NCBI RefSeq assembly: GCF_014400405.1
Contig: NZ_CP060496.1
Span: 1,736,001-1,800,000 of the forward strand
Length of the DNA: 64,000 bases
Source: Brachybacterium sp. Z12
Lineage (GTDB): Bacteria; Actinomycetota; Actinomycetes; Actinomycetales; Dermabacteraceae
Reading direction: 5' to 3'
The notes beneath the pieces are model-generated. The model searched no databases. It saw nothing but the letters and a program-made list of their open reading frames with translations, and was not told the origin of the DNA. Shown one piece after another: positions 14,651-17,211 of this stretch (within the stretch, counting starts at the first letter, position 1; each line of letters begins with the position of its first letter). The position numbers were made by a program, and so were the translations under genes.

Positions 14651-15219
14651 ATGGCGATCATCTACCGAGCCGAGCTCAGCCCCTCCAAGACCGAGATCCT
14701 GCGTGACTTCCTGTCCGGGCGTTCCTGGGGAGAGTCCGGTGAGCTCGAGCTGCTCGGCGCGTACCGCTTCGATGATCCTGCCGGCGAGGTCGGTGTGGAG
14801 TGCCATCTGGTGCGCGTGGGGAGACGATCTACCATCTGCCGCTCTCGTATCGTCCTGCTCCCGTCGAGGATGCCGAGGCGTATCTGCTGGCCACCATGCA
14901 GCATTCGGTGCTCGGCGATCGCTTCGTGTACGACGGTCTGGCCGATGAGACCGCGCTGGACTGCTTCCGGCGCGCGATCTGTGGGGAGCAGCAGCAGGCG
15001 GCGCTCGAGATCTATGACGAGGATGGAGCACTGAGCGAGACGCTGCCGAAGAGCGTGACGCTGAGCCTCGAGGTCGATGAGGGTGAGGAGCCGCCCACCG
15101 GCGACGAGCTGCTGGACGGCACGCCGTTCACCATCGCGCGCACGCTCGGCGATCTGGACGGCGTGGTGCGCCTGCGCGCGACCTGGGACGGCGACAGCGC
15201 GGTCGTGGCAGCACTCTGA
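14651..15219 (+). CDS. Maltokinase N-terminal cap-like domain protein (frame break near 14820)
   Basis: About 189 residues after adding one G at 14818-14821. It contains the elements of the cap domain that precedes actinobacterial maltokinase and is also encoded alone: IYRAELSPSKTEILRDFL, ETIYHLPLSYR, YLLATMQHSVLG and YVYDGLADE-like text. There is no kinase domain. A link to trehalose/glycogen metabolism is family knowledge; glgA and glgC lie 27 kb away and do not prove it. ATG 14651 directly follows GGGAGGT. Confidence 0.75.
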
Positions 15220-15680
15220 GGGGAGCACAGCTCGTAGAGCAGTCCCTGCCGACCTCCAGTCCCACTTTACATAACGTACATTATCGGCGGCGTATCGAGA
15301 GGGCTGTTCAGACGCAGCTGGGGCCCTGATCGACACTGTCGGGACTGTCGAGCCCCACCAGCACGCCGCACAGAGCCCAGCGCCGTTCTCACACGCGACC
15401 AGACGACGCACACAGGCATCCGCAACACAGGCATCGACAAGCCGGCCCCGACGATCTCGCCCTCACCGCGGCAGGACGTGACGGGCGTAGGCCAGGTCGG
15501 CCAGCTCGACCAACGCCCTCACACGACGTCTCCGCAGCCGCCTCACGGCCCCAGCCGCACCGGAACGGTCCAGTCGCGCCGCTCCCCTGACAGGCACCAA
15601 AAAGTCCCCTGACCTCCACTAACGTAACGTTCCTGCAGGTCACAGCCTCGCGTACGCTGTCTCGGTATCCCCGTCGCCCG
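15220..15680. other. Gene-free interval between convergent genes, containing dif
   Basis: Besides the dif site at 15264-15291 it holds a short open stretch on the minus strand near 15475-15600 with no start signal and no recognised product, two CCCCTGAC direct repeats near 15588-15613, and TAACGTAACGTT near 15619. No convincing gene was found. Confidence 0.6.
15264..15291 (-). other. dif: dif chromosome-dimer resolution site (XerC/XerD target)
   Basis: Read on the minus strand the site consists of an 11-bp XerC-side arm GCCGCCGATAA, a 6-bp centre TGTACG and an 11-bp XerD-side arm TTATGTAAAGT. The arms match the bacterial dif pattern, and the CGCCGATAATG...TTATGT portion matches actinobacterial dif sites as remembered. 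It lies between convergent genes, as expected. XerC/XerD recombine here to separate chromosome dimers, which marks the replication terminus region. Confidence 0.88.
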
Positions 15681-17059
15681 TCAGACCACGCCGGTATGGG
15701 GATTGGCGGTGCTGCTCCCCGGCCCGCGAGCACGAAGAAGGTCACCGAGAGCATCGATCCCACCACCATCGCGATCGCCATCGGCAGCGCGGAATGGGTG
15801 CCGGCGATCCCGACCAGCGGCGCCGCGATCGAGGCGGAGAAGGAGAAGCCAAGCCCCAGCATCGCAGAGCCGGTGCCCGCGAACTCCCGCGCCTGGTCCG
15901 AGGCCAGCGCTCCGCCGTTGCCGAAGATCATGCCCTGCGGCGCGACGGTGAAGAAGAACGCCGGCAGCACGATCCATGCCGGGGTATCGAGGAACAGGCT
16001 CCCGATCAGCAGCGAGAAGCTCGCGAGCGATACGACGGCCAGCCCCACCCGGATGAGCTTGCGGGGATGGATGGTGCGGGTCAGCCGGGCGGACAGCAGC
16101 GACAGCGTCATCATGCCCACCGAGTTGATCGCGAAGCTCACCGAGTACTCGGTCGAGGTGAAGCCGAGCATCTCCTGGACCACGAAGGAGGAGGCGGACA
16201 CGTACGCCATCAGCGCGAATGCGGAGAACGCGTTGACCAGCATGTATGCGACGAAGATCCGTCGCCGCAGGAGTGTGCGCACGTTCCGCAGGAAGGTGCG
16301 GAACCCGCCCGAATGGCGACGTGAGACGGGCAGGGACTCCGGGATCAGGAACAGCACGCCGATCAGCGAGATCAGCGACATCACAGCGATCGCCAGGAAG
16401 ATCTCCTGCCACTGACCGAACACCAGGATGAGCCCGCCCAGCAGCGGAGCGACGATCGGGGCGACACCGCCCACGCCCTGCATGATGTTCATGATCCGGA
16501 ACAGCTCAGGGCCGTCGGTCATGTCGATCAGCACGGCCCGTCCCAGCACCATCCCGAACCCTCCGCCGATGCCCTGCAGCACCCGCACTCCCAGCAGGAC
16601 CTCGGCGCTCGGGGCAAAGGCGCAGCCCACGGAGGCGAGCAGGCACAGGATGATCCCGAGCAGCAGCGGGGCGCGGCGGCCGATCCGGTCCGAGAGCGGT
16701 CCGGCGACCACCTGTCCGCTCGCGGTGCCCAGGAAGAAGGCGGTGAGGGTCAGCTGCATCCGCGAGGCGGTCGTCCCCAGCTCCGCGGCGACCTCCGGGA
16801 ACGCGGGGATGTACATGTCCGTCGCGAGCGGGCCGATCGCGCTGAGCGTGGTCAGCACCACGATCACCATGGCGGTGACCTTGCCGCGGGTGCGGCGCAG
16901 CTCCTCTTCGGTGGGCCGCTGGGCGAACTCGTGGTCCGCTGGGTCCTCGAGCACGGGGATCGAACCGGTGATGGTGGGGATCGCCCCGGTGATGGTGGGG
17001 ATGCCACCGGTCACGGTGGGGGTCGGCTCCTCGTTCGAGGTGTCGTCGGCGCGGGACAC
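15681..17059 (-). CDS. Bcr/CflA family multidrug efflux MFS transporter (frame break near 15718)
   Basis: About 459 residues and twelve predicted membrane helices. The family signatures are present: LSAIGPLATDMYIPAFPEV, SGQVVAGPLSDRIGRRAPLL and VLQGIGGGFGMVLGRA. One base is missing in the CCCC run at 15717-15720, after which the true C-terminus ends in HTGVV. The N-terminus before helix 1 is a cytoplasmic tail with three repeats of the type IPTITG. GTG 17059 is preferred because AGGAAGG lies just upstream. It expels drugs or metabolites by proton antiport; the substrate is unknown. Confidence 0.88.
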
Positions 17060-17211
17060 TGCGGGCCTTCCTGGCGGCGCGGAACGGAATGGGCATGCGT
17101 CGAGCCGCGCGGATCCCTCCAGGGATCTCGCCCGGCTCGAAGCTCTCATCCTATGTCTGCCCGCAGCTGACAGTGAAGGGGTCTTGCCGAGGCTGCGGGC
17201 CTCAGGTCATC

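Follow-up and report, generated by a model that had tools for sequence, protein, structure and literature searches.

A single chromosomal dif site and a strand-polar G-rich motif that inverts around it in Brachybacterium sp. Z12

The stretch analyzed here (the window) comprises 64,000 nucleotides of the Brachybacterium sp. Z12 genome, positions 1,736,001 to 1,800,000 of a single contig of 3,511,914 bp. Coordinates below are those of the window unless they are given as genome positions. On the minus strand, positions 15291 to 15264 read exactly GCCGCCGATAA-TGTACG-TTATGTAAAGT, which is the layout of a dif site: two 11-bp inverted arms, a 6-bp spacer between them, and the XerC arm ahead of the XerD arm. 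The element lies at genome position 1,751,264, and its surroundings contain the following features.

14800..15219, plus strand: 3' part of a CG0192-like gene, pointing to dif (family match below the NCBIfam cut-off)
15219..15225, plus strand: AGGGGAG, the nearest inward-facing polar motif on the XerD side
15251..15263, minus strand: outer flank on the XerD side, rich in purines when read on the dif strand (non-random composition in the 43 family sites)
15264..15291, minus strand: dif site, 28 bp (exact reading, uniqueness, and conservation among relatives)
15264..15274, minus strand: putative XerD-side arm TTATGTAAAGT (assigned by comparison with known dif sites)
15275..15280, minus strand: 6-bp central spacer TGTACG (exact reading and 43 family sites)
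15281..15291, minus strand: putative XerC-side arm GCCGCCGATAA (assigned by the same comparison)
15292..15303, minus strand: outer flank on the XerC side, rich in pyrimidines when read on the dif strand (non-random composition in the 43 family sites)
15389..17149, minus strand: ORF of a Bcr/CflA-type MFS transporter, pointing to dif
15582..15588, minus strand: AGGGGAG, the nearest inward-facing polar motif on the XerC side

The neighboring genes converge on the site, as the original prediction had it, with the plus-strand ORF ending at 15219 and the minus-strand ORF at 15389. The CG0192-like gene (14653 to 15219) is apparently split into two frames near 14,800 to 14,832, and both parts match the same relatives. 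Its homologue faces dif from the XerD side in at least 21 of 43 loci from the family Dermabacteraceae, and a homologue of the transporter does so from the XerC side in at least 16 (Z12 is included in both counts, which are lower bounds because most family loci extend only about 1 to 1.5 kb on each side of dif). A 17th transporter homologue is found on the XerD side, pointing away from dif. Across the window, 10 plus-strand and 5 minus-strand genes lie to the left of dif, and 14 plus-strand and 24 minus-strand genes lie to its right. This mixed orientation had been attributed to dif, a link that finds no support: rough gene calls place 541 of the 864 genes sampled on the leading strand, a mild bias of the usual sort and not one caused by dif.

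The 28-mer has one exact match in the whole genome. No second copy is found there with up to three mismatches, and the reversed pattern gives no match. At 70.3% GC and with bases taken as independent, 1.4e-12 exact 28-mers would be expected per genome by chance, and 1.3e-2 matches to the 15-base core with at most one mismatch. The order of arms and spacer, the very low likelihood of chance agreement, and the lack of a second site at up to three mismatches are all borne out.

The core GCCGATAATNNNNNTTATGT is conserved throughout the family. With at most one mismatch, it is found once in each of 43 out of 47 Dermabacteraceae genomes, including all 42 that are near complete (at least 90% complete, at most 5% contamination). 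The four genomes with no match at this threshold are 74 to 88% complete. The reversed core yields one match among the 47 genomes (G042). In the alignment of the 43 sites, leaving aside the first two bases, 21 of 26 positions are identical in at least 42 sequences; the core search itself had fixed 15 of these 26 to within one mismatch. The closing AAGT of the XerD arm, which lies outside the letters fixed by the search, is identical in 43 of 43. The most variable positions are the first two bases and the spacer, whose third base is T in 32 sites and C in 11. Such counts come from related genomes, which are non-independent samples.

A contig scan with a 25-base version of dif recovers 62 loci, of which 21 are classed by title as Dermabacteraceae (Brachybacterium, Dermabacter, Helcobacillus, and one Dermabacteraceae bacterium). 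The other 41 include, by title, 21 Acidimicrobiia, Acidimicrobiales, or Acidimicrobiaceae, 8 uncultured actinobacteria, 7 Actinomycetes bacteria, 2 Acidobacteria, and one each of Gordonia, Frankiaceae, and Saccharibacteria. Two of the loci, L049 and L090, are contigs of one metagenome-assembled genome (PKWY01, titled Acidimicrobiaceae palsa_657); each carries a dif core and their flanks differ, which may indicate a mixed bin or two replicons. A looser core (at most one mismatch) is present in 218 of 296 genomes drawn from the class and absent from 78. Thirty of the latter are all the sampled genomes of one family (f23), 5.8 to 11 Mb in size; we infer that these are streptomycetes, whose linear chromosomes would need no dif.

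The site lies opposite the replication origin, both here and in relatives. The sole dnaA match in Z12 is at genome position 27,427, at a distance from dif of 49.1% of the chromosome. In single-contig relatives of exact length, this distance is 48.7% (G008), 48.2% (G010), 48.5% (G037), 47.3% (G041), and 47.1% (G042); rounded genome sizes give about 49% (G002), 48% (G017), and 46% (G020). For the multicontig assemblies (2, 2, and 4 contigs), it is about 48 to 49% (G012), 44% of the total size (G021), and 49% of the main contig (G035). The best dnaA match was used in each of these 11 relatives; G021, G037, and G042 each have a second, far weaker one.

The GC skew, expected to switch near 15 kb, does not do so: the cumulative curve of the window rises from 0.01 to 0.45 with dips and makes no turn at that point. 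In 57 genome pieces sampled outside the window, the mean skew is -0.0085 for the right arm (27 pieces) and +0.0090 for the left arm (30 pieces, one straddling dnaA; Mann-Whitney P = 0.012). This signal is very weak, and its sign is the opposite of that of a G-rich leading strand; if anything, the leading strand in these pieces is slightly C-rich. The lack of a switch near 15 kb, named in the original prediction as a result that would speak against it, is thus literally observed, but a skew this weak decides nothing in either direction, and GC skew was set aside as uninformative on the polarity switch. The further claim that dif fixes where replication ends is not supported; the available text of Kono et al. 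(2011; PMC3025954) argues that termination does not occur strictly at dif.

A far clearer polarity is carried by a short motif. In a blind count of 6-, 7-, and 8-mers in a first genome sample, scored for strand polarity, the most polar heptamer is GGGGGAG (155 leading to 13 lagging), one of 8 heptamers with z > 5. In an enlarged sample covering 32.2% of the genome, 196 of 215 copies are on the leading strand and 19 face the wrong way. With the origin fixed at dnaA, the maximum-likelihood change-point of GGGGGAG falls at -655 to +3248 bp from dif, bracketing it. For [AG]GGGGAG (290 of 337 leading), the best switch interval narrows to -59 to +310 bp, with 2-lnL support from -655 to +3248. Used as a marker, the motif places the terminus region with an error of a few hundred bases in the best case and of a few kilobases in the worst. 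Its origin switch, at 10.2 to 20.6 kb of the genome, misses dnaA by about 7 kb. Two further candidates were rejected as polar motifs of this genome. The B. subtilis motif, GAGAAGGG, is split 29:24, and GGGNAGGG is only weakly polar (164:121 in the first sample and 214:159 in the enlarged one).

Such a polarity might be secondary to the orientation of genes or the composition of the strands, with G runs resembling ribosome-binding sites, and so be silent on FtsK. The bias of called genes toward the leading strand (63%), the likeness of G-rich heptamers to Shine-Dalgarno sequences, and the spread of polarity over eight heptamers are what this explanation has in its favor. When copies of the motif are sorted by gene direction, using rough calls of 864 genes that make up 69% of the sample, leading and lagging copies number 79:4 on the strand of the gene, yet still 57:12 on the opposite strand and 60:3 between genes. 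The motif read backwards, GAGGGGG, shows a ratio of 106:84 overall and 33:37 opposite to genes, and the overall GC skew is, as noted above, weak and inverted. The by-product explanation therefore appears quite unlikely. GGGGGAG, a polar motif that inverts at dif independently of gene direction, would instead be the signal that FtsK reads, to judge from the analogy with known systems.

The same polarity surrounds dif in relatives. In five of them, within about 40 kb on each side, GGGGGAG points toward dif in 57 of 62, 56 of 57, 24 of 24, 33 of 35, and 21 of 21 cases, as against 45 of 76 for the reversed motif and 67 of 121 for GGGNAGGG. Within about 1 kb of dif in the 43 family genomes, 126 of 129 copies of [AG]GGGGAG point to it. 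In 28 other Actinomycetes (24 of the same order and 4 others, after removal of two Dermabacteraceae loci), inward and outward copies of GGGGGAG within 1.5 kb number 23:0 on the left and 45:2 on the right; in the 41 mostly Acidimicrobiia-type loci, the ratios within 4 kb are 39:1 and 41:5. The original prediction had proposed a check of FtsK-orienting motifs around the site, and dif indeed sits at the polarity switch of a motif of this type (an architecture imparting sequence, or AIMS).

The inward-facing [AG]GGGGAG nearest to dif tends to lie on the XerD side in Dermabacteraceae (38 versus 4 on the XerC side, 42 sites) and, less markedly, in the other Actinomycetes (16 versus 7 of 26 sites, the rest being ties). 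This preference was rejected as a general rule, since it is reversed in the Acidimicrobiia-type group (5 versus 10 of 27 sites, the rest again ties); in the family, it is perhaps partly inherited with the conserved neighboring gene. In Z12, the XerD-side copy at 15219..15225 overlaps the left gene by one base, the final letter of its stop codon.

The genome encodes candidates for the proteins that would act at this site. Five matches to the tyrosine recombinase domain PF00589 represent three genes. The pieces at 1,716.8 to 1,717.4 kb score higher with the XerD model than with the XerC model and adjoin a ParA-type gene, whereas those at 1,153.6 to 1,154.1 kb score higher with XerC and lie downstream of a DprA-like ORF (the names ParA and DprA come from reading the translations). 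In this assembly (stated completeness, 85.7%), the coding sequences of both xerC and xerD are spread over different frames, and every piece stays below the NCBIfam whole-protein cut-off. The splitting of all three of the CG0192-like gene, xerC, and xerD suggests sequencing errors or decay. The third recombinase gene, at genome position 1,849,392, is phage-integrase-like and stands beside a glutamine-synthetase-like ORF (named from its translation). A single FtsK gamma domain (PF09397) is found at 1,197.5 kb, scoring 80.5 bits against a cut-off of 30.6.

By analogy with known systems, XerC would bind the GCCGCCGATAA arm and XerD the TTATGTAAAGT arm. Two sister chromosomes become joined into a dimer when the number of crossovers between them is odd. 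FtsK at the septum would then pump DNA in the direction read from polar motifs of the GGGGGAG type until it meets XerCD at two dif sites, where its gamma domain would activate XerD and recombination would cut the dimer into monomers. This FtsK-KOPS-XerD mechanism is described in the available part of a review (PMC5357621), and binding, activation, and recombination at the Z12 site are predicted from it.

Elements of the IMEX type that integrate at dif copy dif-like sites. The 28-mer could in principle be an attachment-site copy left by such an element, or a plasmid-type Xer site, rather than the dif of the chromosome itself, and the phage-integrase-like gene is only 98 kb away. An origin of this kind is extremely improbable, given the lack of a second site genome-wide at up to three mismatches, the presence of exactly one core in each of the 42 near-complete family genomes, the convergent neighbors with homologues similarly arranged in 21 and 16 of the 43 family loci, and the flip of motif polarity at the 28-mer. 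The 28-mer is almost certainly the single chromosomal dif of a circular actinobacterial chromosome. Points that count against this are the missing GC-skew switch with its tiny, inverted arm means, the four less complete family genomes that gave no core, the fragmented xerC and xerD, the 19 GGGGGAG copies of opposite orientation, and the roughly 7-kb gap between the origin switch and dnaA. Of the original claim that a chromosomal dif marks the terminus, the first part stands on its uniqueness, its position opposite dnaA, its conservation in relatives, the FtsK gamma domain, the xer pieces, and the polarity switch; the second applies only to motif polarity, which flips at the site. Even so, dif provides a firm landmark of the terminus region in Z12, where GC skew offers no usable one.

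A bias in base composition extends beyond the 28-mer. In the 43 family sites, the flanks are pyrimidine-rich at positions -11 to -7 and -3 and purine-rich at -4, -2, +2, +3, and +7 to +12, so that non-random sequence in Dermabacteraceae reaches about 12 bp beyond the 28-mer; farther out, the bias is weaker, except for an excess of C between about +27 and +45. The purine profile over 16 bases on each side correlates between the family and the 28 other Actinomycetes (rho = 0.70; the highest value among 110 far-flank controls is 0.33). For the Acidimicrobiia-type group, the correlations with these two profiles (rho = 0.30 and 0.37) stay within the range of the far-flank controls, whose maxima are 0.57 and 0.56.

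The flanks could belong to a transcription terminator of the two convergent genes and not to dif. The placement of dif between such genes fits this explanation, as do a strong XerD-side hairpin in some family members and a XerD side that is slightly more stable than shuffled sequences in Dermabacteraceae (mean z = -0.31; 9% of 43 below -2). Against it, flanks from the same genome pair across dif no better than flanks from different genomes (P = 0.42 for 30 bases and 0.23 for 20), the pairing of the XerD-side G-rich part with the C-rich part gives P = 0.14, and in other Actinomycetes the XerD side folds with z = -0.03 (27 sites) and the XerC side with z = -0.30 (28 sites), both inside the control range of -0.42 to +0.15; moreover, the purine profile is shared with those Actinomycetes. 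A terminator is accordingly a possible but rather doubtful source of the pattern, and neither it, on either side, nor a hairpin across dif finds general support in the pairing and folding tests. Candidate explanations for the flanks are longer Xer contacts, an accessory protein, or remains of terminators.

A more speculative proposal joins flanks and motif for Dermabacteraceae and related Actinomycetes. The working site would be longer than 28 bp, with two outer arms, a pyrimidine-rich one about 7 to 11 bp ahead of the XerC arm and a purine-rich one about 7 to 12 bp beyond the XerD arm. Either the outer portions of the Xer proteins or an accessory protein would read this outward-facing purine dyad, and GGGGGAG would be the FtsK loading signal of the phylum, its closest copy being kept on the XerD side in Dermabacteraceae. 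Taken as a whole, this proposal is unlikely to be correct in all its parts. Dermabacteraceae would be a good place for testing dif and the possible outer arms experimentally.

Neither the site nor the motif is of a new kind, and this dif is ordinary for its phylum; AIMS-type octamers and actinobacterial dif sites are already in print (PMC2830990 and PMC3025954, as far as their available text goes). According to the accessible part of Kono et al. (2011; PMC3025954), dif was predicted in all 66 actinobacterial genomes used, none of these sites having been confirmed experimentally at that time. The dif suggested there for Frankia alni likewise has 28 bp, an 11-6-11 layout, and the core CCGATAAT....TTATGT, and 23 of its 28 bases equal those of Z12. 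The five differences are the first two bases, two in the spacer (TGTACG in Z12, TGCACA in F. alni), and one in the XerD arm (TTATGTAAAGT in Z12, TTATGTCAAGT in F. alni). Compared with the sites predicted there, GC skew is of no help in Z12.

In Corynebacterium, the AIMS G(A/T/C)GGGGGA and (T/C)GGGGGAG were used to find dif, and in C. aurimucosum these octamers are distributed 856:61 in favor of the leading strand (available text of PMC2830990 and PMC3219685; the former credits the sequences to Hendrickson and Lawrence, 2006). They share with the Z12 motif the G-run core, the strong leading-strand bias, and a switch that locates dif. In contrast to what those texts describe, the Z12 counts use the shorter GGGGGAG and [AG]GGGGAG, with a best switch interval of a few hundred base pairs, and the motif is followed here round dif in Dermabacteraceae, the 28 other Actinomycetes, and the 41 mostly Acidimicrobiia-type loci. 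The E. coli KOPS, GGGNAGGG as printed in the part of PMC13342612 that is available, is likewise a G-rich polar motif that inverts at dif, whereas the same sequence is only weakly polar in Z12, as the counts above show. No match linking GGGGGAG with FtsK was found in the open-access literature searched, and none of its best-ranked matches brings together a dif site, XerCD, and Brachybacterium. The additions beyond what is in print are modest: the same motif polarity in relatives and the non-random flanks in Dermabacteraceae.

A different sequence adjoins dif in the mostly Acidimicrobiia-type loci, of which 40 were compared (the 41 minus L082, whose sequence is identical to that of L197). The box A[GTC][TC]ATA[ACG]CA, defined after inspection of these same sequences, starts at position -24 in 18 of the 39 loci with enough sequence and occurs nowhere else in the loci on either strand. 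An ORF beginning with MRR or VRR and reading away from dif starts 30 to 32 bp from it in 23 of the 40 loci (131 to 142 amino acids in 22 of the 23); in the set L038 to L099, these include L050, L061, L065, L069, and L072, where the ORF is found just before the XerC arm. Judging from its N terminus, the product is probably secreted. Because this ORF starts so close to dif and reads away from it, the box was rejected as an accessory dif element and is most simply read as the -10 element of a leaderless promoter.
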